NCBI GenBank assembly: GCA_003833135.1
Contig: QZLH01000170.1
Location: forward strand, 1-64,000
Reading direction: 5' to 3'
DNA length: 64,000 bases
Source: Oehlia diaphana
Taxonomy: Eukaryota > Glomeromycota > Glomeromycetes > Glomerales > Glomeraceae
This document shows, piece after piece, positions 1,754 to 30,022 of this stretch. Each line of letters opens with the position of its first letter. The first letter of the stretch is position 1. The translations under genes were made by a program, and so were the position numbers. The notes under the pieces were generated by a model. That model made no database searches, was not told where the DNA came from, and saw nothing but the letters and a program-made list of their open reading frames with translations.

Positions 1754-4700
1754 CTAATCATTTATTTCTATAATTATACAATCATCTAAATCTTCACTAA
1801 CTGGTATTTCATTCACTTTTCCACTAGTAGATTGACTTGCATAATATGCTTGTAAATCTTTACTTTTAAGAGTTTCGTTCAATTCTTTACTACTGAAATT
1901 AAGTAAGCGACTTATATAATATACTTGTGGATGAGATTCAGTAGCGAGATTGTTAGGCCCAATTGGTGCATTTATAAATTCCATAACGTTAGATTTTAAT
2001 CCTTTATTCATTATACCATTATCAGGAAAAAAAATCCATCCTCCAATAATATTTAAAACTTCTCTAGAAGATGGCCTTTTTAATGGATCTTTATCCCAAC
2101 ACATTTTCATCAAATCTACGTAACATTGTGGGGTATTTTCGATAATTTCAGGACGTTCACCTTTACAAATACTTATACTAAGTTGAATATCATGTGCTCT
2201 ATCATTGAATGGTGGTACTCCGGATGTAAATTCCCACATAATCATAGAAAAACTATATATATCACTAGCTGGAGTATAAGATTTGCCTCTTAAAATTTCA
2301 GGTGCCATAAATGGTATAACACCATAAATATCATCTTTTTTCAAAAATGATTTTACAGGTCGACATAATCCTAAATCACTAATAAAAATTTTATCTTTAT
2401 CACTTTCCACATGAATTAAAATATTACCATCATGAAAATCACAATGAATAAGATCTTGTTCATGTATTCTATTAAGCCCAGAAATAATTTCGTATAACTT
2501 ATGTAATTTTTGTTTCCAATTTGTTTTGATTATTTTTGTTAAATTTCCTCTCAAATTACCTTTGTTCGCATAATCTATTACCACCATATAATTCAAAGTA
2601 TCTGGATTTCTTGTAAATCCATAAAATTTAATAATATCAGTTGAATATAAACAACGTTTATGATATTCCCACTATAAAAGATAATAATATAATATTAGTA
2701 TTAATAAATTATAATTTAAATTAAAAATAAGTAAATAATATGCTATTCATACTTCATTTAAGAATTCATTTAAATTTTCACTTAAATTATTATAACATTT
2801 AAAAATTATTTCTTTATTTTCATTATTTAACCAATTAGCTTTGTATATAACACTAAATCCTCCCTTATCAAAATATTTAATATTTTTAAATTTATCATAA
2901 GGAATCCATTTTAAATTTCTATCATAAATAAATCTATCCAAAATCATTTCTCCGCTTCTTCCAAATCTATAAATTTAAATAATTAAAATTATATTAAAGT
3001 TAATTATCAAAGTTTATGATTAGAAAAAATTAATATTAATACTTACTCTAAAGTTTAAACAGGGATTTAATAAAATATAAATTTAGCTTTTGTACATATA
3101 TATAGAATAACCTATATTTAATAACTTACCAACTAAAATAACAGATGTTTTTTCAAATAAAAATTTCAGTTAACTAAAATTATAGCTAAAATAAATTTAT
3201 AAATATATATACCAAAAGAAATAACTAATTACTTACATGCTATATTATTTAATAATTTTTTAAATAAAGAGTTTAGTAGTAGTTTAAATTATATAAACAT
3301 TATATAAATATATAACAATAAAATTAAATAAATAACTTACACCCTAATAATTTTTTTTTTAAATAAGGCATTTAGTTAGTTTAAACTATATGTGAACATA
3401 ATAGAAATACAGTATGTAATAATAGTAGAAATAAATAACTTACACTCTAACAATTATTTTTAAACGAGGAATATAGTTAGCTCTAATTATATATACAGTA
3501 TATTATCTGATATAAATATATAATAAAATCAAATAACAACTTACTATACTCTATATTATTAAAAATTTAGTTAGCTTTGGCTTATATAAATAATATATAA
3601 ATATGTAATAATAAAGTCAAATAATAACTTACTGCTATCTGTATTATTAAATAATTTTTAAATAAAAGTTTAATTAATTTGAATGATATAAATAAATAAT
3701 AATAAAATAAAATAATAACTTACAAGATGCTATGTTATTAAATAATTTTTTAAATAAAAATTATTAGTTAAATTATACAGAAATATAATAATAAAATCAA
3801 ATGATAACTTACAACGCCCTATATTATTAAATAATTTTTTGAGTAAAAAATTTAGTTAATTTGAATTATATTGAGGAAATATTATATAAATAAACAATAA
3901 TAAAATTAAATAAATAACTTACATCCTAATAATTTTTTTCAAATAGAGAATTTAGTTAACAAATTATACGCAAATATAATATAATAATAAAATTAAATAA
4001 ATAACTTACTATCTGTATTATTAAATAATTTTTTAATAATTAATTTAAATTATCATAGACATATAATAATATAATTAAATAAATAACTTATAACTTACCA
4101 TCTAAAAAAAGGAATTACCAAATAAATTTTAAATAAAGAATTTAGTTAGCTTAAATCAGATGAAAATATAAATATATAATAATAAAATCAAATAAATAAC
4201 CTACAAACTATATTATTAAATTATTTTTTAAATAAAGACTTTAATTAGTTTGAATTATATATAAATATATTATATATATAATAATAGAAACTAAAAAATA
4301 AATTATAACTTGCCATCTAAAAAAATTACCAAATAACTAAGAATTAACTCACTTAGTCAAATTGCTATATATATAAATATGTAATAAAAAGTTGAATAAC
4401 TTACAATCTATATTATTAAATAATTTTTTTTAGATAAAGAATTTAGTAAATATATTATAAATATATGATAATAAAATTAAATAAATAACTTACATTCTAG
4501 GTTATTAAATAAATTTTTAAATAAAAAATTTAGTCAGTTTAAATTATGTACAAATATATTATAAATATATAATAATCAGCATATGAAATTCAAGTAAAAT
4601 ACTTATTGCATATAAGAAAAAGTTGCAATACAATTTGTGGAAAATAAATTTGATTTTGTGCACAGATATGTTAATATTTTTAAATTCTAAACGGAAAGTT

Positions 4701-7700
4701 GCGTAATGTGCACTCTACAAATTCCACAAATAGATTTCATACACTGATAATAATAGAATTAAATAATTAAATAAATAACTTACCAACTAAAATAAATCAC
4801 CAAAATAAAGAATTTAGTAAGTTTAAATTATGTATAATAATAGACTGAATCATTAATAAATAACTTATAACTTACACGCTAAAATGAAATTACCAAATAG
4901 TTTTTTAAACAAAGAATTTAGTTAGTTTAAATTATTTATAAATTTATTATAAATAAATAATATGTAATAATAGAATTAAATAACTTACCAGTCCCTAATA
5001 TTATTAGTAAGTAATTTTTAGATGAATTTAGTATAAATTAAATATACATTGTAAATATATAATAATAGAATTAAATAAATAACTTATAACTTACCAACTA
5101 AAATAAGTCATTCATAATTTTTAAATAAAGAATTCATTTAGTTAAATTATACATAAATATTGAATAAATAAGCAATAATAATTAAATTAACAACTTACGA
5201 ACTATATTATTAAATAGTTTTTTTTAAAAAATAATTAATAAATTTGTTAGTCTAAAATATATAAATATATTATAAATATGCAATAATAGAATTAAACAAC
5301 TTACTAACTATTCATCAAATAATTTTATAAATAAAAGAATTTATTTAGTTTAAATTATATATGCTGTATATAAATATCTGTAAATAGAATTAAATAGCTT
5401 ACGAACTATATTATTAATTAATTTTTTATAAAAAAAATAGTTTAGTTTAAATTATATATAAATATTAAATAAATAAGTAATAATAAAATTAATTAAAATA
5501 AATTAACAACTTACTAACTATTCATTAAATAATTTTTATAAATAAAGAATTTAGTTAGTTTATATGTAAATATAAATACATAATAATAGAATTAATTAAA
5601 TAACTTACAAGCTATATTATTTAATTAATTTTTAAAATTTAATTAAATTATAATATTATATGCAAATATAATATAAATATGTAATAATGAAATCAAATAA
5701 ATAACTTACTCCCTATATGTTATAAAATAATTTAGTTTAACTTATATGTAAATATTATATAAATATATCATAATAAAATTAAATAAATAACTTACATTCT
5801 AGATTATTAAATAATTTTTTAAATAAAGAATTTAGTGTAAATATTATATAAATATGTAATAATAAAATTAAATTAATGGCTTACCCTCTATATTGTTAAA
5901 TAATTTTTTAAGATAAATAATTTAGTGTAAATATTATATAAATATGTAGTAATAAATTAAATTAATGACTTACTCTCTATATTGTTAAATAATGTTTTTA
6001 AGATAAATAATTTAGTTGTTTTAAATTATATATAATTATGCAATAATAGAATTAAATAAATAACTTACTAACTATAAGAAATTACAAAAATAAAGAATTT
6101 AGTTGGTTTAAATTATATGTGAATATCATATAAAAATGTAATAATAAAATTGATGAATAAATAACTTACAAACTACATTATTAAATAATTTTTTAAATAA
6201 AAGTCAGTTTAAATAATATGAGTATTTTATAAATGTATAATAGAATTAAATAATAACTTACCAACTATATTATAAAGTAATTTTTTAAATAAAAATTTTA
6301 GTTAGTTTAAATTATATAAATTACAATATTATATAAATATGTAATAATGGAAAACTTACAATCTATATTATTAAATAAATTAAAGAATTTAGTTTGTTTA
6401 AATTATATGTAAAGATATTGTAATTATGTAAGAATAGAATTATATAAACAACTTACAAACTATATTATTAAATAATTTTAAAATAAAGAATTTAGTTAGT
6501 TTTAATTATATGTAAATATATTATAATAGAATTAAATAAACAACTTACAGACTATTTCAAATTATTTTTAAATAAAAATTTAGTTAATTTAAATTATACA
6601 CGAATATTCACAAATATATATTAATAGTATTAAATTAATAACTTACAATCTATATTATTATAAAAATAATTAAGACTTAGTTAGTTTAAATTATATGTAA
6701 ACATAATTAATAATAGAGTAAAATAAATAACTTACAATCTATATTATTAAATTAAATTAAGAATTTAGTTCATTTAAATTATATATATTAAAATATATTA
6801 TAATTATGCAATAATAGAAATAAATAAACAACTTACAAACTATATTATTAAATAAAGAATTTAGTTAGATTAAATATATTACAAATATATAATAATAAAA
6901 TTAAAATAAATAACTTACTAGCTATGTGATTAAAAATTTTTTCAAATAGAATTTAATTAGTACAAATTATACAAATATATATAATAATAAAATTAAATAA
7001 ATAACTTACAAACTATATAATTTAAATGATTTTTTAATTAAAGAATTTAGTCAGTTTAAATTTTGTGTAAATATTAAATAAACTTAAATAACTTACAAAC
7101 TATATTATTAAATTAAATAAAGAATTTAGTTTGTTTAAAAATATTGAAACTAATAATAGAATTAAGTAAATAATTTATAACTTACGAACTAAATAAAATT
7201 ACCAAATTATTTTTTAAACAAAGAATTTTGTTAGTGTAAATTATATGTAAATATATTATAAACAATATGAATAATAAAATTAAATAACTTACTAATTGCT
7301 ATATTATTAAATAATTTTTTAATAAAAAATTTAGTTAATTTGAATTATACTAATAAATAATAATAATAAAATCACAAAAACAAATAAACTTACAATACAC
7401 TACATTATTAAAAATTTAGTTAGTATGATATAAATATATAAAATAAATCAGATAACAACTTACAACAACCTATATCAATATCTTATAACTTACCAACTAA
7501 AGAAATTACCAAATAATTTTTCAAATAAAAGATTTTTTTAGTTTAAATTGTTTATAAATATTACATAATTATGTAATAATGGCATTAAAATAACTTACTT
7601 ACTATATTATAAATAATTTTTTTAAATAAATAATTTAGTAAGTTTAAATTATAAATAAATATTTTGTTTAAGAGTTAATTAAATATAACTTACAAACTAT

Positions 7701-10700
7701 ATTACCAAATTAAATAAAGAATTTATTAGCTTAAATTATATCAATATTATATATAAATGTATAATAATAAATTAAATGAATAACTTACAAACTATATTAT
7801 CAGTTATTAAATAATTTTTTAAATAATGATATGGATTTAGTTAGTTTAATTTACTATATAATATAATAATATAATTATAAATTTAAATAAATAACTCACT
7901 CCCTATATTGTTTAATTAAAGAATTTAATTAGTTTATATATATTATAAATATATAACAATAGAATTAAATAAATAACTTACAGCCTATATTATTTAAAAT
8001 AAAGGATTTAATTAATATAAATTTAATACATGCAAATATTATATAAATATATTAAATGCTTACCAGCTATATTATTAATTAAATAATGAATTTAGTTAAT
8101 TTAAATTTTATATAAATATATTATAGTTATATAATAATAAATTAAATAAATAACTTACAAACTATATTATTAAATAATTTTTAAATGAAGAATTTAGTTA
8201 GTTTAAATTATGTAAATTATTATATAAGTAGACATTATATAATATACTAAATAAATAACTTACAAGCTATATTATTAAATATAAATAATTAAATTAGTTT
8301 AAATTATATATAAATATATCATAAATATGTAATATTAATAAAATTAAATAAATAACTAAACTACTTACAACCTATATTTTAAATAATTTTTTAAATAAAG
8401 AATTTTAATTAGTTTAAAAATATAATATATATTAATAAAATTAAATAAATAACTTACAAACTATATTATTAAAAATGAATTTAATATTATATATAAATAT
8501 ATAATAATAATTTAGTTAGTTTAAATTATATATAATATTATATAAATATGTACTAATAATAGATAGAATTAAATAAATAACTTACTTCCTATTTATTAAA
8601 TAATTTTTTAATAAAGAATTTAATTAGTTAAATTATATATAAATATTACATATAAATATGTAATAGTAGAATTTAATAAATAACTTACTTTCTATTTATT
8701 AAATAATATTTAAATAAAAAATTTAATTAGTTTAAAATATATGTAAATATATTATAACATATAATAACAGAATTAAATAAATTTTACAACCTGTATTATT
8801 AAATAATATTTAAAATAAAGAATTTAGTTAATTTAAAGTATACAATAATATATAATTAAATAAATTAGTAAATAACTTAATACAGCTTACTTTCTAAAAT
8901 AAATTATCAAATAATTTTTAAATAAAGAATTTAGCTTAAATAGCAATAATAAAATAAATAATCTATTAACATACCATCTAAAAGAAATTATCAAATAATG
9001 AATTTGGTTTAAATTACATGTAATATTATATAAATGCAATATGCAATAATGAAATTAAATAACTTATTACCATGATCTAAAAGAAATTAGCAAATAATTT
9101 TTTAAATAAAGAATTTAGTTTTAATTATAGAGTATGTAGATATAATATAAATATGTAATAATAAAATTAAATAAATAACTTATTAACATACCATCTTAAA
9201 GAAATTAGCAAATAATTTTAAATAGAGAATTCAATTTTAATATTATATAAATAGTATGTAATGAATGTAATAATGAAATTAAATAAATAACTTATAACTT
9301 ACAATCTAAAAGAAATTAGCAAAATTTAGTTTAAATTATATATAATGGAATAAATAGTAATGGAATTAAATAGATAACTTACGATCTATAATTATTCAAA
9401 TAAAGAATTTAATTAGCTTAAATTATATGTAATATAATTTTACTTCAAATCACCGGGGGGATGATCACCGGTGACTGAAATTATGACGACCACCAGCATT
9501 AAAAAAAATATAGAGCCAGTAAAAATTGATAATTCTGGCCAAAGGTGATGATCACCCCCGGTGATTTGAAGTAAAAAGCATAATAGATATAAATAACTTA
9601 CAATCTATAATATTAAATAATTTAACGAATTTAGTTAGTTTAAATATAATATAAATATATAAAAATTTGGGTTGCAGACATTTCTTATGTTAAGGGTAAC
9701 TACCCAGTTACGTCTTGACTTATATTAGTTTATGTTATAATGTCTGCAACCCTAATAAAAATAAATTAAATAAATAACTTAACTTACCATCTAAAATAAT
9801 TTACCAATATTTTTAATAATTAGTTAAATTACATGCAAATAGCATTAAATAAATAACTTACCACCTAAATTATAAAATAATTTGTGATTTATTAAATAAA
9901 AAATTTAGTTTAAATCATATGTAAATATATAAATATGCAATCAGAATTAATAAATAACTTACTTCCTATATTATTAAATAATTTTTTTAATAAAGAATTG
10001 GTTAATTTAAATTAAATGCAGATACAGTGACACCTCTATGAGTGCACTCTCTATAAGTGCATGCACTATATAAATTCGCTTTAAGTGCACGGTTGGCCTC
10101 TTTCCAACTTATAAAAGCCCTTAATATTTTACTCTTTATAAATGCACACCCTCTCTAAGTGCACATCCTACTATTTTTTTTACTATGGTCCCAAGGGGAT
10201 GCACTTAGAGAGGTGTCACTGCATTATATATATAAATATGTAATAATAGAATTAAATGAATAACTTATAACTTACGATCTATAGAATACAGAATTTGTTA
10301 GTTTAAATTGTATATAAGCATATAATAATAAAAACCTACAATCTATTTTATTAAAAGAATTCAGTTAATTTAAATTATATGCAAATATTATAAAAATACA
10401 TAATATTATAATTAAATAAATAATTTACCCCCTATATTTATTAAAAAATTTTTTAAATGAAGAATTTAGTTAGTTTAAATCATATGCAAATATTATAAAA
10501 CATGTAATAATAGAAATAAATAACTCACAAACTATATTATTAAATAATTATTAAATAAAGGATTTGATTAATCTAATTATCATATAACATATAATAATAG
10601 AATTAAATAAATAACTCACATTCTAAAAAATAATTTTCAAATAAAGAATTTGGTTAGTTTAAATTATATGCAAATATAAAAATACATAATAATAGAATTA

Positions 10701-11594
10701 AATAAATAACTTACTTCCTATATTATTAAAATAAATAATTTGGTTAGTTAAATTATACGTAAATAAAATATAAATATATAATAATAATAGAATTAAATAA
10801 ATAACTCACTCTCTATATTTTAAATAATTTTTAAATAAAGAATTTAGTTTGTTTGTTTAAATATTATATAAATTTATAATAATAAAATTTAATAAATAAA
10901 CTTATAACTTACCAACTAAAAGAAAATTTTTAAATAAAGAATTCAGTCAGTTTAAATTATATAATGATAAAAATATTGATAACATATAACTTACACCCTG
11001 TAGTATTATTAATTATTAATTTGTTAGTAGGATTAAATATGATACAAAACTATATTATAATAAATCAAATATATTACTCACAATCTTATCATTTAAGTAA
11101 AGAATATATAATTAATTGAATTATATAAAATATTAAACAAATAAATATAATATTATTAAAAATTGAAACTTTACCTTCTGTAATATAATTAATTATTAAT
11201 AGTTATTTAAAAAAATATTTAGTTATTTAAATATTGTGTAAATTAAAATAAAAAATTAAACAACTGATAACTTACTAACTATAGTATTATTAATTATTAA
11301 TTATTTAGTTACATTAGAATATAACAAAAATAAGTAATTCCATTATTATTCAATTATAAGATAACTCTATTAACTTACAAACTAAATAAATTATTTGATA
11401 TAATTAATATTAAATTAATGCATAATGTACAATTATAATATTTAAAATTATTTACAATTTAATATATTATATTTACCTTTAATTTCCTCAGTACTTAAAA
11501 CTTATTGCAATTTGATTAGAAATTTAGAGTAATTCTAATTTATATTAAATACTCATACTATATGCTTTTTACCTTCATTATTACTATGAGCCAT
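1754..11594 (-). CDS. TKL-type protein kinase with N-terminal region encoded by a microexon array
   Basis: Model: complement of exons 11573..11594, 11477..11500, about 82 microexons between 11381 and 3047 (separate entry), 2753..2966 and 1754..2671. The total is 1449 nt (482 codons plus stop) and the frame is consistent end to end. The N-terminus reads MAHSNNEVLSTEEIK from the first two exons. Residues 16-40 (microexons) are acidic/aromatic, 48-72 and about 76-91 are hydrophobic (probable membrane segments), and 107 onward is the kinase. Kinase marks: GGFSVIY glycine loop, IIFK as the ATP-binding lysine, HCDFHDGN catalytic loop (HRD replaced by HCD), DLG in place of DFG, MAPEIL, and KRPS near the end. 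The C-terminal tail starts HPQVYYISRLL. The two kinase exons join as NE|WEY across 2672-2752. One in-frame TAA falls across microexons 8788 and 8689; skipping the 8788 unit, which has a weak GTAAAA donor, removes it. The kinase exons are certain. The microexon part is inferred from splice signals and frame. A conventional short model would start at Met 2947. Confidence 0.75.
4577..4746. mobile_element. MITE, 170 bp, CAG...CTG termini
   Basis: The ends CAGCATATGAAAT and ATTTCATACACTG are imperfect inverted repeats. ATAAT flanks both sides (possible target-site duplication, but low-complexity). Inner TTTGTGGAA and TTCCACAAA are also inverted. It lies wholly inside the intron between microexons 4784 and 4494, which explains that oversized spacing. 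Confidence 0.7.
9443..9571. mobile_element. MITE with TA duplication (Tc1/mariner-like)
   Basis: The termini CTTCAAATCACCGG and CCGGTGATTTGAAG are perfect inverted repeats that continue imperfectly through the GATGATCACC region. TA flanks both ends (9441-9442, 9572-9573), as expected for Tc1/mariner-type insertion. There is no transposase inside. The element sits in the intron between microexons 9602 and 9383. Confidence 0.85.
9669..9752. mobile_element. 84-bp MITE with perfect 14-bp inverted ends
   Basis: GGGTTGCAGACATT at 9669-9682 and its exact reverse complement at 9739-9752 bound a short GC-richer core. It lies in the intron between microexons 9788 and 9602. The target-site duplication is not clear. 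Confidence 0.8.
10025..10221. mobile_element. MITE, CAGTGACACCTCT ends (pogo/Tigger-like)
   Basis: The left end CAGTGACACCTCT and right end AGAGGTGTCACTG are perfect inverted repeats. Inside, several AAGTGCA motifs recur in both orientations. TA precedes the left end, but the right flank is CA, so the duplication is not intact. CAGTG termini followed by ACCTCT resemble pogo/Tigger elements (inference). It lies in the intron between microexons 10276 and 9963. Confidence 0.75.
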
Positions 11595-17105: not shown

Positions 17106-18352
17106 TTATAACTTATATTCTAATTTACTCTTACAAATAAGTTCAATGCGCCACTAACAAAAATAAAAGATAATAAATAAATGTTTATTTATTGAACATT
17201 TCAAATACAAAACAAAATAACTTACTTCATCATTTCCTCCTAAATTTTCATTATGACAAACAACTTCTTGAAAAGTATCGTTCCCAATAGTAAATCGAAC
17301 ATCATGACTACGTAAAAATTCAACTTCTTTATTACCATACGTTTTCTTAATGCCAAGATTAATAGTATCATATGATTTTAAATATCCTTTATGATTTTCC
17401 GATTTACTGTGTTTAAAATCCCAATCACAATTATCTCTGCCACAATATACTAGAAAAATAATAATAATGAATACTTTAATTAAGATAGTAATAAACTTTC
17501 AATTTATTATTACCTTCTGTATGTTCAGTTGTCGGAGATTTGTAATAAGTATGAACTTTTGGGGCAAAATAACATAATCCAAGATAATGACCGGATTCAA
17601 TATGTTGTAATTCTATTAAAGTTCCATTATATATAGCAATTTCTCCTCTAAACTTAATTTTCCATAAAGCATTTAGATCAAGCTCTGAACTGCCTGCAAA
17701 AACCTTAAATAATTGAATAAAAGTTAATTATCAATGAAACAAAAAAGAAATGTGTAAATAATATATATACCACTTGATTCTTGCTTCCAGTTGTATAACA
17801 CAAATCTTCAATTGAACTTAAATATTTTCTTGTAGCAACATGCTTTAAAGCTATAATAGATTCATTTCTAATTAAATTTAATTCATCTGCAATAATTTCT
17901 GTAAATTCTTTAATTAAATCATTCATTGAATTAATTTTCTTTCTTCTATTAATAAATTCCAAAAGATAACAATAATTATTATTATAAAGTGTATTACAAA
18001 AATAATTTTTTTGTTCTTCTATATCATTAATTTCAGAATTGTAACATAATTTACGAAAATCTGAAATAAATTTTGAAGTAGTTCCACCTTCTTTTTCAGG
18101 AATATATTTTAATGATTCTAATAAACTTTTATTTGTACATTTAAATACTGTAAAAGAAATATCCTCTTTAAGTGCATTACGAAGTTCTTCAAAACTATTA
18201 ATTTTAGTTGGAAGTGAGATAATACTGGAATCTACTAATGATATAGCAATATTCAAATAATCATCATCATATTGCTTAAGTGCAAGATATTTTTGAATAT
18301 CATTTATCCATTTATCCGGATGTATATTTCCATCATATTTTGAAAGTTTCAT
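17106..18352 (-). CDS. Gag-like/MIR-domain protein, copy A
   Basis: Four exons: complement(join(17106..17153, 17226..17449, 17514..17703, 17771..18352)), 347 aa. Start MKLSKYDGNIHPD aligns with the paralogues; the upstream Met is not conserved. Residues 1-160 resemble a retroelement capsid-like region (YDG..HPD.W..DI..Y at the start, then a charged helical part). The C-terminal half is a MIR-type beta-trefoil: IALKHVATRKYLSS, GSKNQVVFAG, NALWKIKF, FLRSHDVRFTIG, FQEVVCHNE, GGNDE|WRIELI. MIR repeats occur in protein mannosyltransferases and IP3/ryanodine receptors; the role here is unknown. No signal peptide or membrane segment is visible. Intron phases (0,1,0) match the rest of the family. Unlike the other cluster members, it lacks the shared E-box block upstream. 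Confidence 0.85.
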
Positions 18353-19177
18353 TTTTTTTTTCCTAAAGTTGACGGTGCAAAATGCAAGTAAGTTGATGGT
18401 GTAAAAGTGCAAGTTAATTAATATTTATATACATAGACACCCCCTTTTATTGGTTATTGATAATAGTGACTTAATCCTTGACTTGAAATGACAAATAATT
18501 TTACGCTTTCAATACACAATAAAATACAGATTTAGATGAATGTACTGCTTTTTTTTATAAATTTGATAATCATCACCAAATATAAATAATTTAATTTGAT
18601 TGATAAGTTTACTAATATACTAAGCTAAATGACGCTATTTTTTTGAAATCTTCAATAATATAAAATGAAAGCAGTATTGTTATTTTGCTTAAAGTATCGA
18701 TTAATAAAATATATTTTACGTTATCAGAAAAAAAAAATAAATATTTCTCAAATAATTGGAAACTTACCATTATTAAAATAACTATTATCATTACATGAGC
18801 AACTTTGAGAAAAAAATATATTTCTAACAGACAAATAAATTGGTAAAAGATTTTACTGTCATATTCAAAAATGATGGCAATTTGAATATTAATCATTTTT
18901 ATAAATCGTACTGTATATAGCGACAACACCGAAAACAGCAATAACTGGAGACTTTATTTTTATCGGATTTTTTTTAATTAGAATAGTCAGCGTACGTAGT
19001 TTATTGAAAACTATCAATATTATAAGATTGTTTTATTGAAAAAACTTCAAGAATCTAGAAATATTTATTTAAGATTATTAAAAAATTCGAACATAGCTGC
19101 TTAAGGAATTCAATTTTTTGACAATTAAAATTAAAGTAATTTATATTTTCTCAAATATAACTTACATCCTATTTTAT

Positions 19178-20430
19178 TCAACCTTGTCTAATCAGTTCAA
19201 TGCACCACTAAATAAAGGGAAAATCAGTTAGTATTTATTTATCACTTCAAATATAAAATAATAAAATAACATACTTCATCATTTCCTCCTAATCTTTCAC
19301 TATGGCAAACAACTTCTTGAAAAGTATCATTTCCAATAGTAAATTGAACATCATGACTACGTAAAAATGAATTTTGAGAATTATACATAATAATGCTAAG
19401 ATTAATGGTATCATTTGACATTAAATATCCCTGGTGATGTTCTAATTTACTATGATTAAACTTCCAACTAATTTCATTTCCGACGCAACATACTAAAAAA
19501 GAATTACTAATGAGTACTTTCTGTCGCTTTAATTAATTAATAAATTAAGTAAATACCTTCAATTTATTACCTTCTGTAAGTTCAGTTATCGGAGATTTGC
19601 AATAAATATAATTGTATCCATTGTGATAACTATATAATCCAAGAAATTTGTCAGATTTGATATGTTGTAAGCTTATAGAAGTTTTGGTTTTATTATATAA
19701 TGCTAATTCTTTATCAAATTTAATTTTCCATATAGCATTTATATCAGGCTCTGAACTGCCTGCAAAAACCTTAAAAATTTGAATAAAAGTTAATTACCAA
19801 TAAAATACAAAAAGTACTATATAAAAAGTCATACCACTTGAAAATTACTTCCGGTTGTATAAAGTAAATTGTCAATTGAACTTAAATATTTTCCTGTAGC
19901 AAAGTGTTTTAAAGCTACAATAGATCCATTTCTAACTAAATTTGTTTCATCTGTAACAATTTCCGTAAATTCTTTAACTAAATCATTCATTGATTTGATT
20001 TTCTCTTTTCTTTTAAAAAATTCGGTTAAAAAATAATTATAATATTCATTGTTTGGAAGTAATCGATAAAAATAATTTATTTGTTCTTCTATATCATTAA
20101 TTTCGGAGTTATAACATAATTTACGAAATTTGAAATAAACTTCGAAGTATTTCCACCTTCTCTCTCAGGAATATATTTCAATGATTGTAATAATCTCTTA
20201 TTTGTACATTTAAATAATGTAAAAGAAATATCCTCTTTAAGTGCATTACTAAGTTCCTCAAAACTATTAATTTCAGCTGGAAGTGAGATAATATTTGAAT
20301 CTACCAATGCTATAGCAGTATTCAAATAATAACTACCACATTCATTATTATGACTAAGTTCAAGATATCTTTGAATATTGTTTATCCATTCATCTGGATG
20401 AATATTTCCGTCATATTTTGGAATATCCAT
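19178..20430 (-). pseudogene. Gag-like/MIR-domain gene copy B with one frameshift
   Basis: Exon pattern as in the family: 19178..19207, 19275..19492, 19571..19769, 19835..20430. Start MDIPKYDGNIHPDEW. Exon 1 is 596 nt where a multiple of 3 is expected. Next to the other copies, one base is missing near 20125-20130 (around TTACGAAATTTGAAA), so the frame stops at 20089. The other exons remain open, with normal splice sites and the final WCIELI motif. It is either a young pseudogene or a sequencing/assembly error in an A-run. Confidence 0.8.
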
Positions 20431-20470
20431 ATTTTTAAATTTTTTTTAAGCGTAAAAAAAGGACTCGGCG

Positions 20471-20538
20471 TTTTTATATCCAGTTTTATACATTTTATTA
20501 ATTATATCATGCATATCATTTGTCACGTGTGCGAACAT
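20471..20538 (-). promoter_or_regulatory. Core promoter and E-box block of copy B
   Basis: On the minus strand, a CACGTG-containing block (20506-20538) precedes TATAAAACTGGATATAAAAA (20471-20490), 40-60 bp upstream of the ATG. The same arrangement occurs in front of copies C, D, E and F. Confidence 0.6.
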
Positions 20539-20549
20539 ATATGGTCAAG

Positions 20550-21168
20550 TATGAAGCGGCTGAAGCGTAATACTGATCAAAAGTCTGGGATTAAACCCTA
20601 GGATTTATCCGAAATGAAAAATTGATTAATATACCGGATTTTCCTATATGTTATCCCTTTTATCCCGGATTAATTACTTAAATTTCATATTTTATCCCAA
20701 GTGTGACATCAGCAGGCAATAAATTAAAATCACGTGCTCCTGCTTAAACACCCCGTAAAAACAGAGAAATTTTTTTATTTTAAAGTTATAAGAGAAGTTT
20801 CTAAAATGATCTTATAAACAAAAAATCTGATTACATAAGTTAGAAACAACTGTGATATAATTAATCCAAGGATAAAATTTATAAGATAAAATCAAATCCG
20901 GGATAAATATAGATCAAATTCAGGATGAAATCATATTGATCAAATCTGGGATAAAGAGTAATCCAGGGTTTGATAATTGGATGTGATATAATTTTTGGTG
21001 AAATTCAAGGAATTAACCTGGGATAAAATGTGGATCAGAGGATAAAATATGGATCAGATCCAGGATAAAATATAGGAAGATCCGGGATGAAATATGGAAT
21101 AGTCTATTTTCACCCCAGGGTTTGATCCAGGTTTTAATCACAGATTTTGATCAGTATGGCGCTTCATA
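20550..21168. mobile_element. Non-autonomous TIR element, 619 bp
   Basis: Imperfect inverted ends of about 45-60 bp begin TATGAAGCG and end CGCTTCATA. Both arms contain ATACTGATCAAAA and a GGATTAAA-type motif. The element is flanked by GTCAAG on both sides (20544-20549, 21169-21174), a probable target-site duplication. The interior is made of many degenerate GGATAAAAT / GATCCGGGAT motifs in both orientations. It has no coding capacity. It inserted just upstream of the E-box block of copy B. Confidence 0.8.
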
Positions 21169-21847
21169 GTCAAGCAAATCCTTAAATCCAAATGATCCCG
21201 GTGATCATTACCGATACTGATTACTTAAAATAATGATAATAAAAAAAATATTATTTTTTTTTTTGCGTTCACGGTTCATAAATACATGGGGCGAATTAGG
21301 CTCAAACCATGCCGACGGCTGACGGTACATTACACCGACCAATTCATTACACCGGTGTAATACTGGTGTAATAGTACTATATTAATATGAATCTTTGAAC
21401 AAAAATTCGGTGTAATATATTTCACCATTGTGCTGTCTTAATGCTGAATTATCTGAAATAATTACGCCCTCCCATGTTTACGTTCATCAGACAAAAAAAT
21501 AGTAAAAATTTTCAAATAATTGAAACTTATCATATTATTAAAATAACTAACAATTTGAATATTAATCATCTTATAAATCGTAAATAGCAAACACATTGAA
21601 AACAGCAAAAAACTATCCATTTATATTCATATAAAATTATCGATATTTCTGAAAATGGCTTGTCATAATTTTTTTTTTAAAATTAGAATAATCGGCGCAC
21701 GTAGTTTGTTTATTGAAAGTTTGAACTATCAATATTACAAGTGATTTTTTTTTAAAGGAAAAAACATCATTGGTTAAATGAATTCAAATTTTTGATGATT
21801 AAATTGAAATAATTCATAATTTCAAATATAGCCCCAATCCAATTTAT
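21169..21847. other. Intergenic region between copies C and B
   Basis: No gene seen. It includes a TTACACC/GGTGTAA repeat cluster near 21331-21375 with the palindrome TTACACCGGTGTAA. From about 21480 there is sequence homologous to the 3' flanks of neighbouring MIR genes, showing that the duplicated unit extends beyond the coding region. Confidence 0.5.
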
Positions 21848-23108
21848 TCAACCTTGTTTAATAAGTTCAATGCACCACTAACGAATATAAAAAAATAAAC
21901 AATAAATATTTTAATTAACATTTCTAATATAAAACAAAATAAATTACTTCATCATTTCCTCCTAATCTTTCGTTATGACAAACGATTTCTTGAAACGTAT
22001 CATTTCCAATAGTAAATTGAACATTATGACTACGTAAAAAATTTTGAGAATTATCATGTCTATGAATGCTAAGATTAATAATATCATTTGACTTTAAATA
22101 TTCTTGGTGATCTTCTAATTTACTATTCTTAAACTTCCAACTAATTTCATTTCCGCCACAACATACTAAAAAGAATTACTAATGAGCACTTTCTGTCGCT
22201 TTAATTAATTAATAAATTAAGTAAATACTTTCAATTTATTACCTTCTGTAAGTTCAGTTATCGGAGATTTGTAATAAGTATAAATATAATTGTATTCATC
22301 GTAATAATAATATAATCCAAGAACATTGCCAGATTTGATATGTCGTAAGTTTATAGAAATTTTATCATATATAGCTAATTCTTTATCAAATTTAATTTTC
22401 CAAAAAGCATTTGTATCAGGCTTTGGACTGCCTGCAACAACCTTAAATTTGAATAAATGTTAATTACCGATGAAATAAAAAAAGAAATGTATATATAAAA
22501 TGACATGCCAGTTGACGCTTGCTTCCAGTTGTATAACATAAATTTTCAATTGAACTTAAATATTTTCCTGTGGCAACATGTTTCAAAGCTACAATAGATT
22601 CACTTCTAATTAAATTAAATTCATCTGTAATAATTTCCGCAAATTCTTTAACTAAATCATTCATCGAATTTATTTTCTCTTTTCTTTTAATAAATTCCAA
22701 AAAATAATAATGATGACTGTTATCATTATTTGGAAGTGCATTATAAAAATAATTTTTTTGTTCTTCTATATCATTAATTTCAGAATAATTACATAATTTA
22801 CGAAAATTTAAAATAGACTTCGAAGTATTTCCACCTTCTCTTTCAGGAATATATTTCATTGATTGTAATAATCTCTTATTTGTACATTTAAATATTGTAA
22901 AAGAAATATCCTCTTTAAGCGCGTTACTAAGTTCCTCATAACTACTAATTTTAGCTGGAAGTGAAATAATATTAGAATCTACTAATGATATAGCAGTCCT
23001 CAAATAATAATCACCATATTTATTTGGTTGCTTAATATCAAAATATTTTTTAATATCATTTATCCATTCATCTAGATGAGTATTTCCATCAAATTTTGAA
23101 ATATTCAT
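21848..23108 (-). CDS. Gag-like/MIR-domain protein, copy C
   Basis: complement(join(21848..21877, 21948..22165, 22243..22441, 22509..23108)), 348 aa. Start MNISKFDGNTHLDEW by alignment with paralogues. An upstream in-frame Met at 23231 exists, but that extension lies in the core promoter of the family. The capsid-like N-terminus and MIR-type C-terminus (IVALKHVATGKYLSS, GSKRQ, WCIELI at the end) are intact. The exon 1 donor is CTG|GCATGT, a GC-AG intron, where the other copies have GTATAT. This may be a tolerated change or reduce splicing. Confidence 0.8.
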
Positions 23109-23160
23109 ATTTTTAAATTTTTTTAAGAAAAAGCGTAAAATTTTTAATAAAAGGGACTCC

Positions 23161-23187
23161 GCATTTTTACATCCAGTTTTATACTGG
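23161..23187 (-). promoter_or_regulatory. Core promoter of copy C
   Basis: Minus-strand CCAGTATAAAACTGGATG lies about 65 bp upstream of the start codon and matches the TATAAAACTGGATAT element of the other family members. Confidence 0.55.
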
Positions 23188-23232
23188 TTTAATAAAACGC
23201 TAGTATATATATATATATATGCGATTATCATG

Positions 23233-23425
23233 GCCTAGTGCTTCGACCCGGATTGATCCGTTGATTAGCAACATTTTCTATTATTTTTGTCAAACTATAA
23301 TTTTTGTCAGATATTCTTCTACAAATTTTATTAATTTTGGCCAAAGTTATAGCTCCAACTCAAATAAACCGATCCAAACCGTAGTAAACCGCGGATTGAT
23401 CCGTTAATAACCCATCGCACTAGTA
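23233..23425. mobile_element. 193-bp insertion in the copy C promoter
   Basis: The segment is flanked by TATCATG on both sides (23226-23232 and 23426-23432), while paralogues D and E have one uninterrupted copy of this sequence. Termini carry CTAGTGC (23235-23241) and GCACTAG (23417-23423). CGGATTGATCCGTT is repeated near both ends. It separates the E-box block (23427-23458) from the core promoter. Short hAT-type elements give similar 7-8 bp duplications (inference). Confidence 0.75.
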
Positions 23426-23426
23426 T

Positions 23427-23458
23427 ATCATGCATATCATTTATCACATGTGCGAACA
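23427..23458 (-). promoter_or_regulatory. Conserved E-box block of copy C (displaced)
   Basis: Same block as in copies B, D, E and F, but the core hexamer is CACATG rather than CACGTG, and it now lies about 320 bp from the ATG because of the insertion. Confidence 0.5.
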
Positions 23459-24371
23459 CAAAAAAAATGGCCAAATGATCACTGTGATCATTGTTCACGA
23501 GATCTATTTTTAAAATCTCAAAATGGTGAATCGAAGCAGAATTATTTCTAGTATATATTTTGCTTAAAGTGTATTGATTAATAATAAATATATATATATA
23601 TATTACATTTATCAGAAATAAGTAAAAATTTTTCAAATCATTAAGTAACTATTATCATCAAATATAAAAAATATTTTAACAGACAAATAAGTTTTTAATA
23701 CTGCTATATTCAGAAATGTTGGCAAATTTGAATATTGATCATTTTATGAATCGTATATAGCGAACACAGCAGTAAAAATTATCCACATCCTTGACCGGAC
23801 TTGAGATAGAGTATCGTACACATTTTTCGTTCGGCAACACCTGCAAACCATTTAATGATGTATTCGTTAAAATTCCAGTCTCTTAATGCATAAAGATGAA
23901 TTTTATGCCAGCATGTACCTTTGCTTCAAAATCAGACAAGAGTTGTCAGTAACTTATATATATCGATATGTTATTGTCAATATTTCTGAAAATGGCAACA
24001 ATTAGAGACTTCCACGGATATACAAGGTGAATAGTGCTAACCATATCTGTTTGTTTTATAAGTTGAATCAATTAGATTTAACAATCATAACGCTCAATAT
24101 TCTTGAGTCGTTCGAGATACGCAAATACGATACTTTTAGTGGACTGGTGGGTAACACTATAACTTCCAACTTGCGTCTTTTTTTAATTAGAAATTTAGAA
24201 TACAGTAGTTAATTTACGTACTAGTTTATTGAAAGTTTGAGCTATCTATATTATAGATGACTTTTTTAAGGAAATCGTTATGGATCTAGTGCTACTTATT
24301 TATTATCATTAACAAATTTTTTGACAAATAATATGAAGTAATTCGAATATAGTAACTCACATCCTACTTTA
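23459..24371. other. Intergenic region between copies D and C
   Basis: No gene supported. It is AT-rich and partly homologous to the spacers between the other MIR genes (the TTACTGTCAT..TCAGAAATGTTGGCAA type of sequence). A less AT-rich insert lies around 23780-24190. Confidence 0.45.
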
Positions 24372-25569
24372 TTAAACTCGTTTAATAAATTCAATGCACC
24401 ACTAATAAAGAAATAAATAAATATTTAATTAAATATTTCAAATACAAAACAAAATAACTTAATAACTTACTTCATCATTCCCTTCTATTATTTCGTTATG
24501 ACCAACAATTTCTTGAAAGTATCATTTCTAATAGTAAATTGAACACCATAACTACGTAAAAATGAATTTGATAATTACCAAACGATTTAGCAATAATAAT
24601 ATCATTTGACTTCAAATATCCTTGGTGATTTTCTAATTTACTATCCTTAAACTTCCAACTATTCAGTTTTCATTTCAGTTACAACATATTACTAAAAAGA
24701 ATTACTATTGATTACTTTCTATTCTTTAATTAATGATAAATTAAGTAAAATTTTTTAATTTATTACCTTCTGTGTGTTAGCTATCGGAGATTTGGATAAA
24801 TAAATCCATCTCTATAAAAATTACATAATCCAAGAACATTGCCAGATTTGATATGTCGTAATTTTATAGAAGTTTTATTATACATAGGGAATTTTTCTTT
24901 AAATGTAATTTTCCATAAAGCATTTAGATCAGCTCTGGGCTGCCTACAAAAGCCTAAAATAATTGAATAAAGTTAATCATTGATGCAATAAAAAAGAAAT
25001 GTATAAATGGATATACCAGTTGATTCTTGATTTCAGTTGTATTACACAAATTGTCAATTGAACTTAAATATTTTCCTGTAGCAACATGCTTTAAAGCTAC
25101 AATAGAATTATTCCTGATTAAATTTGATTCATCTGCAATAATTTCCGCAAATTCTTTACTAAATCACTCATTGATTTGCTTTTCTTCTTTCTCTTAATAA
25201 ATTTCAGAAGATAATTAATACAATCGTTATCATCATCATTTGGAAGTTTTGGAAGTGTATTACAAAAATAATTTTCTGCTTTACTATATCATTAATTTCA
25301 GAATTGTAACATAATTTACGGAAATCTGGAAGTATTTCCACCTTCTTTTTCAGGAATATATTTTAATGATTATAATAACCTTCCTCTTTAAATGCGTTAC
25401 TAAGTTCCTCAAAACTATTAATTTTAGCTGAAAGTATAATAAGATTAGAATCTACTAGTGATATAGCAATATGCAAATAATAATCATCATGTTTAGCACT
25501 TTAGCTGTGTATCTAAGTTTAAGGTATTTTTGAATATCATTTATCTCCGTTATATTTTGGAATATCCAT
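24372..25569 (-). pseudogene. Decayed gag-like/MIR-domain gene, copy D
   Basis: All four exons can be recognised: final exon 24372-24401 with WCIEFI, the third from about 24474, the second near 24770-24955, and exon 1 from about 25020 to the ATG at 25567-25569. There are several 1-nt losses, such as CTTGAAAGTATC near 24512 where the intact copies have CTTGAAAAGTATC. Larger deletions remove the HPDEWIN segment near the start codon and the FKCTNKR region near 25380. No long reading frame remains. Confidence 0.85.
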
Positions 25570-25570
25570 A

Positions 25571-25667
25571 TTTTTTTATATCCAGTTTTATATTGGTTTA
25601 TGAAGCGCGTATTACGTGTTAACAAAAATATCGATTATCATGCATATCATTTATCACGTGCGAACAC
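25571..25667 (-). promoter_or_regulatory. Core promoter and E-box block of copy D
   Basis: TATAAAACTGGATATAAAA on the minus strand (25575-25594) and the CACGTG block (25634-25667) are preserved although the gene is dead, so loss of the coding region is recent or promoter activity was not the first to go. Confidence 0.5.
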
Positions 25668-26262
25668 AAAAAATCTACAAACAGATCTGAGAATCTAACA
25701 TACTGAGCATTCTTCAATAATAGAAAACGAAAGCAATAAAAGCAATATTATTATTACCGATATTTATTTTTCTTGATTAATAAAAAAAAATTATATACTT
25801 TTTACATTCAACAGACAAAAAAAATGTAAAAAAAATTTTTCAAATAATTGAAACTTATCATACTATTAAAATAACAAATTTGCTATATATTTTTAACAGA
25901 GGTAATAGACTTTACTGTCATAATCAGAAATGTTGGCAACTTGAGTATTGATCATTTCATAAATCGTAAACAGCGACACTTATATTTACTTAAATTGTCA
26001 ATATTTCTGAAAATGAATTACCACGATCTGTTTTATAATAGTCGACGCATGTAGTTTGTTCATTTAAAGTTTGAATTATCAATATTACAAGTGATTTTTT
26101 TAAAGGAAAACATCGTGGATCCAGTACTATTTATTTGTGATTATTAAAATCAAATATTAGAATAAATATTATGCACAAAAATTATGGCTATTTATAATTA
26201 AGGAATTCAAATTTTTGATAAATAAACTAAAATAATTATATTTAACTCACATCCTAATTTAT
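25668..26262. other. Spacer between copies E and D
   Basis: No gene seen. The sequence is strongly similar to 27678-28230 (shared AATCAAATATTAGA, GGATCCAGTACTATTTAT and TTGGCAACTTGAG blocks), so it is part of the tandemly duplicated unit of about 2 kb. Confidence 0.6.
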
Positions 26263-27520
26263 TCAATCTCGACTAATAAGTTCAATGCGCCACTAAAAAA
26301 AATAAAAAATTAATAAATAAATTTTTTATTTATTGAATATTTCAAATACAAAAAATTTTAACTTACTTCATCATTTCCTCCTAATCTTTCGCTATGGCCA
26401 ACAACTTCTTGAAAAGTATTATTTCCAATAGTAAATTGAACATCATGACTACGCAAAAATGAATTTTGATAATCATAGTACGATTTAAGAATACTAAGAT
26501 TAATAATATCATTTGACTTCAAATATCCTTGGTGATTTTCTAATTTACTACACTTAAACTTCCAAATATCTTCATTTCCGCCACAACTTACTAAAATGAA
26601 TTACTATTGATTACTTTCTATCTCTTTAATTAATGATAAGTTAAGTAAAAAATTTTCAATTTATTACCTTCTGTATGTTCAGTTATCGGAGATTTGCAAT
26701 AATCATCACAGCCGTAATCATAATAAAATCCAAGAACACTGCCAGATTTAATATGTCGTAATTGTATAGAAGTTTTATTATACATAGGTAATTTTTCACT
26801 AAACTCAATTTTCCATAAAGCATTCAGATCAGGCTTTGGGCTGCCTGCAAAAGCCTAAAATAATTAAATAAAGTTAATCATTGATGCAATAAAAAAGAAA
26901 TGTATAAATAGATATACCAGTTGACGCTTGCTTCCAGTTGTATAACACAAATTGTCAATTGAACTTAGATATTTTCCTGTAGCAACATGCTTTAAAGCTA
27001 TAATAGAATTATTTCTAATTAAATTTAATTCATCTGTAATAATTTCCGCAAATTCTTTTACTAAATCATTCATTGATTTGATTTTCTCCCTCCTCTTAAT
27101 AAATTCCAGAAGATAATAATAACAATCGGTATCATCAGTATTTGGAAGTTTTGGAAGTGTATTACAAAAATAATTTTTTTGTTCTTCTATATCATTAATT
27201 TCAGAATTGTAACATAATTTACGAAAATCTAACATAAATTTTGAAGTATTTCCACCTGCTTTTTCAGGAATATATTTTAATAATTCTAATAACCTTTTAT
27301 TTGTACATTTAAATAATGTAAAAGAAGTATCCTCTTTAAGTGCGTTACTAAGTTCTTTAAAACTATTAATTTTAGTTGGAAGCGAGATAATATTGGAATC
27401 TACTAATGATATAGAAATATCCAAATAATTTTTATCATATCTCCTAAGTGCAAGATATTTTTGAATATCATTTATCCATTCATCTGGATGAATATTTCCG
27501 TCATATTTTGGAATATCCAT
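26263..27520 (-). CDS. Gag-like/MIR-domain protein, copy E
   Basis: complement(join(26263..26292, 26367..26590, 26668..26854, 26918..27520)), 347 aa. Start MDIPKYDGNIHPDEW. The capsid-like region (FKCTNKRLLELLKYIP, then NTSKFMLDFRKLCYN) is followed by the MIR part: IIALKHVATGKYLSS, GSKRQL|AFAGS, NALWKIEF, LRHIKSGSVLG, FLRSHDVQFTIG, FQEVVGHSERLGG and the last exon WRIELISRD. All introns are GT-AG with phases 0,1,0. It is the closest relative of copy F, 1.97 kb upstream, and the flanks are duplicated too. Confidence 0.87.
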
Positions 27521-27570
27521 ATTTTTATATTTTAAAGTTTTTTTTTTTTAAGAAAAAAGCGTAAAATTTT

Positions 27571-27677
27571 GGCTGCGTTTTTTCCAGTTTTATTTTGGTT
27601 TATGAAGCGCGTATTTTACGCGTGTTAACTGAACAAACATGTCGATTATCATGCACTTCATTATCACGTGTGAACAC
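27571..27677 (-). promoter_or_regulatory. Promoter region of copy E
   Basis: The CACGTG block (27645-27677) is present. The core element is degenerate here (AAAATAAAACTGGAAAAAA in the minus-strand sense), lacking the second TATA stretch of the other copies. Confidence 0.45.
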
Positions 27678-28230
27678 AAAAAATCTACAATACTGAGTTT
27701 TCTTCAACGAAAGCAATATTATTATTACCGATATTTATTTTCTTAAAGTGTTGATTAATAAAAATAATTATATACTTTACATTTAACAGACAAAAAAAAA
27801 AATGTAAAAAAATCTTTCAAATAATTGAAACTTATCATACTAATAATAAAATAACAAATTTTCTATATATTTTTAAGACAAATAAATTGGTAATAGATTT
27901 TACTGTCAAAATCAAAAATGTTGGCAACTTGAGTTTTGATCATTCCATAAATCGTTACGTGAATTATCAATATTTCTGAAATGGATTACCACGATCTGTT
28001 TTAGAATATTCGATGCATGTAGTTTGTTCATTGAAAGTTTGAACTATCAATATTACAAGCGATTTTTTTAAGGAAAAACACGTGGATCCAGTACTATTTA
28101 TTTATGATTATTAAAATCAAATATTAGATTAAATATTATGCACTAAAATTATGGCTACTTATAATTAAGGAATTCAAAATTTTGATAAATAAACCAAAAT
28201 AATTTATGTTTAACTCTCATCCTAATTTAT

Positions 28231-29489
28231 TCAATCTTGACTAATAAGTTCAATGCGCCACTAACAAAAATAAAAAAAAAAAAAACAAATAAATTTTGAG
28301 CATTTCAAATACAAAACAAAATAACTTACTTCATCATTCCCTCCTAATCTTTCGCTATGGCCAACAACTTCTTGAAAAGTATCATTTCCAATAGTAAATT
28401 GAACGTCATGACTACGTAAAAATTCAACTTTATTATTATTATACCTTTTAATAATACTAAGAATAATAATATCATTTGACTTCAAATATCCTTGGTGATT
28501 TTCTAATTTACTATGCTTAAACTTCCAAAGATTTTCATTTCCGTTACAACACACTAAAAAGAATTATTATTGATTACTTTCTATCTCTTTAATTAATAAT
28601 AAATTAAGTAAAAAAATTTTAGATTATTACCTTCTGTATGTTTAGTTATCGGAGATTTATAATAAATATAATAATCGAATAAATTGTAATAATATAATCC
28701 AAGAACATTGCCAGATTTGACATGTCGTAATCTTATAGAAGTTTTATTATATATAGGTAATTTTTCATCAAATTCGATTTTCCATAAAGCATTTAGATCA
28801 GGCTCTGGGCTGCCTGCAAAAGTCTAAAATAATTGAATAAAGTTAATCATTGATGCAATAAAAAAGGAATGTATAAATAGATATACCAGTTGACGCTTGC
28901 TTCCAGTTGTATAACACAAATTGTCAATTGAACTTAAATATTTTCCTGTAGCAACGTGATTTAAAGCTACAATAGATCCATTTTTAATTAAATTTAATTC
29001 ATCTGTAATAATTTCCGCAAATTCTTTAACTAAATCATTCATTGATTTGATTTTCTCCCTTCTCTTGATAAATTCCAGAAGATAATTATAACAATCGGTA
29101 TCATTCTTATTTGGAAGTTTTGGAAGTGTATTACAAAAATAATTTTTTTGTTCTCGTATATCATTAATTTCAGAATTGTAACATAATTTACGAAAATCTG
29201 AAATAAATTTTGAAGTATTCCCACCTTCTTTTTCGGGTATATATTTTAATAATTCTAATAACCTTTTATTTGTACATTTAAATACTGTAAAAGAAATATC
29301 CTCTTTAAGTGCATTACGAAGTTCTTTAAAACTATCAATTTTAGTTGGAAGTGAGATAATACTGGAATCTACTAATGATATAGCAATATTCAAATAATTA
29401 TCACCTGTGTATCTAAGTTTAAGGTACTCTTGAATATCATTTATCCATTCATCTGGATGAATATTTCCGTCATATTTTGGAATATCCAT
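28231..29489 (-). CDS. Gag-like/MIR-domain protein, copy F
   Basis: complement(join(28231..28260, 28330..28553, 28631..28823, 28887..29489)), 349 aa. Start MDIPKYDGNIHPDEW. It has the same architecture as copy E: capsid-like residues 1-150, then a MIR-type trefoil with HVATGKYLSS, GSKRQL|TFAGS, FLRSHDVQFTIG and WRIELISQD. Intact, with GT-AG introns and phases 0,1,0. A 61-codon alternative frame inside exon 1 is only a shadow. Confidence 0.87.
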
Positions 29490-29540
29490 ATTTTTTAAAA
29501 AATTTTTTTAAGAAAAGCGTAAATTTTTATTGAAAAAGGA

Positions 29541-29580
29541 CTCTGCATTTTTATATCCAGTTTTATACTGGTTCATTATG
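29541..29580 (-). promoter_or_regulatory. Core promoter of copy F
   Basis: Minus-strand CCAGTATAAAACTGGATAT lies 60-85 bp upstream of the ATG, matching copies B-D. Confidence 0.5.
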
Positions 29581-29601
29581 AAACGCATATGTACAGTATG
29601 T

Positions 29602-29798
29602 CCGACACTTTTTCCACCCCCACGTGATTTTGTAAAATTCATCACCGGCATCACGCCCCACTGCGTTTTCACTGTTTATATTTTTCTGAGGGACTTTAAT
29701 AGTTTTTTTTTTGCTTCACAAAATTATTTTTTTTCACATCCCTTTAAATGTCACCGGGCACGTGGGTGTGGAATTTTAATTTTAATTATAAGTGTCGG
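29602..29798. mobile_element. MITE in the copy F promoter
   Basis: Inverted termini CCGACACTT (29602-29610) and AAGTGTCGG (29790-29798) are followed inward by CCACCCCCACGTG and its near reverse complement CACGTGGGTGTGG. It is absent from the matching position of copies D and E. It separates the core promoter from the E-box block. Confidence 0.75.
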
Positions 29799-29807
29799 GG
29801 TAAATAG

Positions 29808-29836
29808 CATGTATATCATCTGTCACGTGCGAACAT
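29808..29836 (-). promoter_or_regulatory. Conserved E-box block of copy F (displaced)
   Basis: Contains ATGTTCGCACGTGACAGATG on the minus strand. The same block lies upstream of copies B-E. Here it is about 320 bp from the ATG owing to the MITE. Confidence 0.5.
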
Positions 29837-30022
29837 AATAAATTTTTACTGATACGAAGCCGGACATTTTTTATTAAAAAGTTACATTGTTTTTTTTTTT
29901 AACAAAAAAAATATATATATATATAATTTTAAAATATCCTTTTTTTCCTTGAAAATTAAAATTATTAAAATATAAAATGTATTTTTTTTTTAAAAAATCT
30001 TAAAAGTATTTATAATGTATTT

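Follow-up and report, generated by a model that had tools for sequence, protein, structure and literature searches.

The bicycle genes of aphids are built of many small exons, each of them far longer than one codon. Schistosome micro-exon genes (MEGs) vary their products by alternative splicing. Their exons measure 6-36 bp, and the encoded proteins are described as secreted or membrane-anchored (PMC5825161). Exons of 3 nt and of 1 nt can be spliced, as exemplified by the 1-nt exon of Arabidopsis APC11 (PMC4674806), and a functional micro-exon has been reported for Xlr2 of the filamentous fungus Trichoderma (PMC11121469). Introner-like elements of fungi are sets of near-identical introns that multiply within a genome (PMC4457414). 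In stwintrons and recursive splicing, adjacent introns are removed stepwise, and intron definition is described for filamentous fungi (PMC5639578).

The window analyzed here is a stretch of 64,000 nucleotides from Oehlia diaphana (contig QZLH01000170.1). The original prediction, made from the letters of the window alone, had proposed a gene on its minus strand with a long run of 3-nt exons. Our analysis confirmed 78-81 consecutive micro-exons ahead of a protein-kinase exon. The gene and the inserts found in its introns are laid out as follows.

11573..11594, minus strand: exon 1 (ATG...GAAG, MAHSNNE), ending in phase 1; from the sequence and paralogous first exons
11477..11500, minus strand: exon 2 (VLSTEEIK plus one base), ending in phase 1; from the sequence
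3047..11381, minus strand: array of 78-81 micro-exons, mostly of 3 nt; from splice-site chaining
3047..3047, minus strand: last exon of 1 nt (A), shifting the frame from phase 1 to phase 2; the same feature stands before 22 of 23 kinase exons
2753..2966, minus strand: first kinase exon, (E)FGRSGEMILDRF...FLNE; from the sequence and homologous kinase exons
1754..2671, minus strand: second kinase exon, through the stop codon; PF07714 (2.5e-38) and PF00069 (2.3e-36)
9438..9576, no strand given: insert with 22-nt perfect inverted ends within one array intron; adjoining micro-exon sites intact
10022..10224, no strand given: insert with 25-nt inverted ends (88%) within another array intron; adjoining micro-exon sites intact

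Every micro-exon of the window array is followed by an intron-like unit of about 95 bases with the donor GTAAGTTAT and the acceptor TAG, and with these two matches Pfam assigns a protein kinase domain to the gene product. A third insert with inverted ends was seen by eye inside an array intron at about 9669-9752, and its bordering micro-exon sites are intact as well. First exons akin to exon 1 of the window (MALSNDK, MGQCIGK, MSQYIGK and others) were found at 14 of the 19 loci listed. Paralogous second exons likewise end in ...AAAG or ...GAAG ahead of GT, this phase being a condition imposed by the script that listed the paralogues and not a discovery. The first exons reading MGQCIGK or MGQYIGK (L025, L030 and others) resemble N-terminal lipid-anchor signals.

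For the window, splice sites were chained with exon length left free between 1 and 30 nt, using splice-site profiles from strong donors. Training used strong donors with an AG no more than 14 nt upstream, so that very short exons were somewhat favored, with no length within that range preferred. The resulting chain comprised 76 micro-exons, 69 of 3 nt and seven of 6 nt. Softer settings gave 78, including the closing 1-nt A; in this chain the micro-exon at 3443, which had been chained as 1 nt (T), was set by hand to AGT. In the fullest chain, to which three weak-donor units were added by hand (among them GTT at 8787, donor GTAAAATT), there are 81 micro-exons: 72 of 3 nt, eight of 6 nt and one of 1 nt. 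The original prediction had counted 72, nine and one, respectively; its ninth 6-nt exon was probably GTTGTT at 7463, which was left out here since it would need an intron of about 24 nt. The single in-phase stop that had been claimed appears in the 81-unit chain once the weak-donor units join, and the 78-unit chain is free of stop codons. That the only stop depends on weak-donor units would fit with such units having gone out of use. Entropies of the three exon bases across 61 aligned window units are 1.83, 1.23 and 1.71 bits, with an invariant AG before and an invariant GT after them, in agreement with the diverse exon bases and conserved intron ends that had been reported.

The window array belongs to a genome-wide family, which goes beyond the original prediction. 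Exact counts of TAG-N3-GTAAGTTAT gave 1346 genome sites, compared to 29 for N2, 18 for N4 and 43 for N6, while reversed control patterns with spacers of 2, 3, 4 and 6 nt gave 46, 46, 59 and 38. The excess at 3 nt is not a product of chance. With a 6-nt spacer this close to its control, exons of 6 nt show no genome-wide enrichment and are mostly peculiar to the window array. The looser pattern ATATAG-N{0,20}-GTAAGTTATTTATTTAATT occurred 264 times (control 0), and among the 100 matches listed the spacer was exactly 3 nt in 99 and 6 nt in one. A comparison of 1 kb of the window array with the genome returned at least 217 matching places, with 40 of 192 candidates scored. Array sites among the matches listed for the two patterns were mostly clustered. 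In 20 stretches the first upstream AG lay exactly 3 nt from a strong donor in 615 of 650 cases. When the chaining, again with 1-30 nt allowed, was extended to 25 arrays (the window and L009-L032), 857 of 887 micro-exons measured 3 nt; lengths were 3 or 6 nt, the exceptions being the closing 1-nt exon and a small number of irregular units. Micro-exons of lengths other than 3n, named beforehand as speaking against the proposed gene, are therefore rare in the paralogues. The 862 chained introns have a median length of 97 nt, and 629 of them carry a CTRAY branch-like motif at a median of 34 nt from the acceptor end.

At least 75 of 150 scored candidates matched the first kinase exon of the subfamily at an E value of 6e-12 or lower, and three of these contain an internal stop; 27 stretches, fewer than these 75 genes, were fetched for the array check. 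Three of the stretches, L033-L035, were chosen because they were absent from the first array search listing, and their arrays are short or lie at a contig end. At L034:2002-2600 the array stands downstream of a kinase-like coding stretch. Here, the conserved array start is partly contained in one 18-nt exon (GAGAAAAATATTTTGATG), followed by the micro-exons ATT GGT GGA, and this exon is possibly an intermediate of exon splitting or fusion. Repeated blocks of micro-exons in L024 and L026 (multiple copies of TTG AGC; CTC TTA ATG GAA GAA) suggest that more than one unit was duplicated at a time.

These arrays share with schistosome MEGs a long succession of very short exons, each a multiple of 3 in length and thus fit for in-frame skipping. 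They differ in that nearly all exons measure 3 nt, below the range of MEG exons, in that there are up to about 80 of them, and in their position ahead of a protein kinase. Exons as tiny as that of APC11 are singles in ordinary genes and Xlr2 has one regulated micro-exon, neither of them an array; bicycle genes share with the arrays a large number of small exons. With introner-like elements the arrays have in common that near-identical introns occupy many places in the genome, as the 1346 sites and the matches to the 1-kb piece demonstrate, but here the like introns stand in tandem, one per codon, and no spread through unrelated genes was seen among the matches listed. Introner-like elements also duplicate target bases on both sides of the intron. 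Such a duplication is not apparent in the arrays, where neighboring codons are identical in 52 of 657 cases, compared to 52.7 after shuffling. In stwintrons and recursive splicing, as described, no base is kept between the parts, whereas the arrays keep three coding bases. Among the matches listed from open-licence PubMed Central papers, with subscription journals mostly outside this search, no description of such single-codon exon arrays was found.

The coding signal was examined by translation of the joined micro-exons. Array starts recur as CTC TTG ATG ATT GGT and variants, and array ends as CTT TTG A; read in phase 1 after exon 2, the segment starts with xLDDW and ends with SFE before FGKSGN. 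Across the 25 arrays, phase 1 contains two stops in 835 codons. Shuffling the order of units (2000 shuffles, runs cut at pieces of 10-28 nt) gave a mean of 35.6 stops (sd 4.6, minimum 20), and none of the 2000 shuffles was as low. The other phases showed no depletion, with 5 stops vs 5.7 shuffled in phase 0 and 132 vs 111 in phase 2. Internal units alone (3-nt units only, L018 and L031 left out) had three stops in 615 codons compared to 26.8 in shuffled order, with 0 of 5000 shuffles as low. Avoidance of stops in one phase argues that the 3 nt are translated, and it falls in exactly the phase in which codons are split between their first and second base, as had been suggested. Straight translation of the raw chains gave phase-1 stops in five of the 25 arrays (L014, 1; L018, 2; L028, 2; L029, 2; L031, 5), all of which except L028 hold chained pieces of 10-28 nt. 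Residues other than stops lie near their shuffled order (z -2.5 to +2.3, compared to -4.7 for stops), and the encoded segment would consequently resemble an arbitrary peptide without stops. At all fetched loci the micro-exons mostly have T or G as their middle base. At third codon positions G exceeds A in the arrays (205 to 76), and A exceeds G in 16 kinase exons (460 to 75).

The kinase exon requires phase 2. A 1-nt exon A was located 68-91 nt upstream of it in all but one (L009) of 23 stretches; 28 stretches had been examined, and in five the kinase exon lay outside the stretch or was not recognized. The same search also turned up AG-T candidates in front of 11 of the 23 kinase exons. The exact pattern of the 1-nt exon together with the kinase exon start occurs 14 times in the genome (control 0). 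In-frame joining of array and kinase exon, put forward for the window, is supported by this 1-nt exon, by the stop avoidance in phase 1 and by recurrent first and last micro-exons that read approximately xLDDW ... SFE-FGKSGN. Summed over the chain as obtained, micro-exon lengths give 3n+1 in 13 of 23 arrays, and in three more (L010, L028, L033) after addition of the 1-nt exon. The window array reaches 3n+1 after one acceptor is reset by hand, and L018, L021, L022, L025 and L031, each with an irregular unit inside, do not sum to 3n+1.

Not foreseen by the original prediction either was that the three exon bases are far more variable than the introns around them. Internal units were compared in 52 disjoint nearest pairs. 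The micro-exon bases differ at frequencies of 0.40, 0.29 and 0.44, compared to a mean of 0.075 over the flanks (70 and 60 nt), where the profile is flat; the highest value at any other position is 0.21. In other words, these near-identical units differ at 38% of micro-exon positions and at 7.5% of flanking intron positions. Base composition was rejected as the sole cause of the exon variability, since the contrast stays large at A/T sites (0.373 vs 0.060); at G/C sites it is smaller (0.386 vs 0.221). Triples displaced from the micro-exon, 37 in number, reached a mean difference of 0.105 and a maximum of 0.179, compared to 0.378 for the micro-exon triple itself. Among 54 classified codon changes, 48 were nonsynonymous and six synonymous, while about 10 synonymous changes (18-19%) were expected, which is no clear difference. 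When whole introns were compared, codons showed a loose tie to the upstream intron and next to none to the downstream intron.

Judged from the sequence, the array is very probably a coding stretch that consists almost wholly of single-codon exons. Successive introns of about 97 nt are 3 nt apart, acceptor to donor, so that codons would be split 1+2 by an intron. The likely route of splicing is intron definition, in which the introns would be taken out one after another and the exon itself would not need to be recognized. Indeed, every intron has its own unusually strong donor (GTAAGTTAT) and a TAG acceptor, which would make exon recognition dispensable, and the donor is conserved on the intron side to about +9, the exon side being free to vary. 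The joined micro-exons would encode a hypervariable stretch that links a short N-terminal piece to the protein-kinase domain, and the final 1-nt exon would be required to reach the kinase frame. Since all units are 3n, skipping of any of them would keep the frame, and hence one gene could yield many isoforms that differ by single residues. It is highly improbable, in our view, that the array is instead an untranslated intron-like tandem satellite, or one very long intron removed by recursive splicing with the 3 nt discarded. Tandem, similar units of about 97 nt would suit such an element, and so would the omission of the array from most deposited relatives, but it predicts neither a fixed 3-nt spacing with variable letters nor stop avoidance in one phase nor a conserved 1-nt exon. 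Spacing, phase and frame led us to reject satellite DNA, understood as tandem units without coding constraint, and equally recursive splicing.

If the units are single-codon exons, two histories may account for the variable codons between similar introns. Introns may have been copied or homogenized from site to site, by introner-like spread or gene conversion, over pre-existing codons and without special selection on the codons; alternatively, units may have duplicated, after which the codons changed quickly by diversifying selection or local hypermutation. We regard the former as plausible, falling a little short of probable. It fits that codons differ in 76% of 87 pairs whose upstream introns are at most 4% apart and in 75% of 85 pairs whose downstream introns are this similar, that identical neighboring codons are not in excess at lag 1, and that synonymous changes are not clearly depleted. 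However, codons are partly linked to the upstream intron end (TCTTTT-AG with TTG, TAATAT-AG with GGA; K-means groups), in pairs that match to within 3% on each side the codon is mostly retained (10-20% difference at each position, n = 10 pairs), and the exact spacing at every codon would demand insertion at one codon phase each time. Duplication followed by rapid codon change is, to our mind, a serious candidate with not quite an even chance. The excess of differences at the three bases over the flanks, its persistence at A/T sites, the low values of displaced triples and the block duplications in L024 and L026 are all consistent with it. On the other hand, codon composition is about random except for stops, and the synonymous share is not clearly off expectation.

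Database searches revealed how annotated proteins treat such genes. The 85 homologous matches are Rhizophagus kinases, 15 of which start at an internal MDNF or MDHF, and many deposited relatives lack an array. The R. diaphanus protein P0002 corresponds to the kinase of L021, being identical across 110 aligned residues, which makes R. diaphanus or a very close fungus the probable source of the genome, and 23 of its 24 N-terminal residues match L021 micro-exons in phase 0; the D that is absent corresponds to a GAC unit skipped by the chain. In P0086, also from R. diaphanus, all 64 array residues match the L016 micro-exons in order, using 64 of the 74 units in the span and skipping ten, four of which have plainly weak donors. 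Both proteins therefore contain strings of 3-nt exons, but in another frame, with odd starts and with units skipped. They may be software predictions and not transcripts. An annotation pipeline thus joined such exons, in a frame that leads into the kinase only after adjustment. P0090 and the L019 model have the same first 39 residues, after which P0090 reads DEWWNRMVE. A protein search with two readings of the window's own array gave 12 kinase matches, none of them named R. diaphanus; the spliced cDNA of exons 1 and 2 had no match in viral_contigs, and the kinase start none in genome_contigs. Since the deposited models seen here miss or misread array genes, a large part of the kinase family in these symbionts may be wrongly annotated.

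If transcripts confirm the single-codon exons, one gene would be spliced about 80 times, with one amino acid placed each time. This would test how small an exon can be and how much intron definition can achieve, would bear on intron multiplication, and would turn around the usual pattern of conserved exons and variable introns. Rather speculatively, the arrays might act as a codon-by-codon generator of diversity. The N-terminal segment of the kinase would then be assembled from singly skippable codon exons whose rate of change is several times that of their introns, and evolution and splicing would both vary the protein residue by residue, as a recognition or signaling repertoire of a coenocytic symbiont.

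Two further observations concern the window. Between 6261 and 8000 on the minus strand, the segment predicted from the array has a hydrophobic run (WIFLIVYSIILFSIYYFFYFVF), which could be membrane-spanning or could merely reflect T-rich codons; the segments of other arrays are mostly polar. Outside the array, several related open frames on the minus strand at 17705-31359 and 48738-49340 form a local gene family with common motifs that include KYDGNIHPDEWINDIQKYL and HVATGKYLSS.
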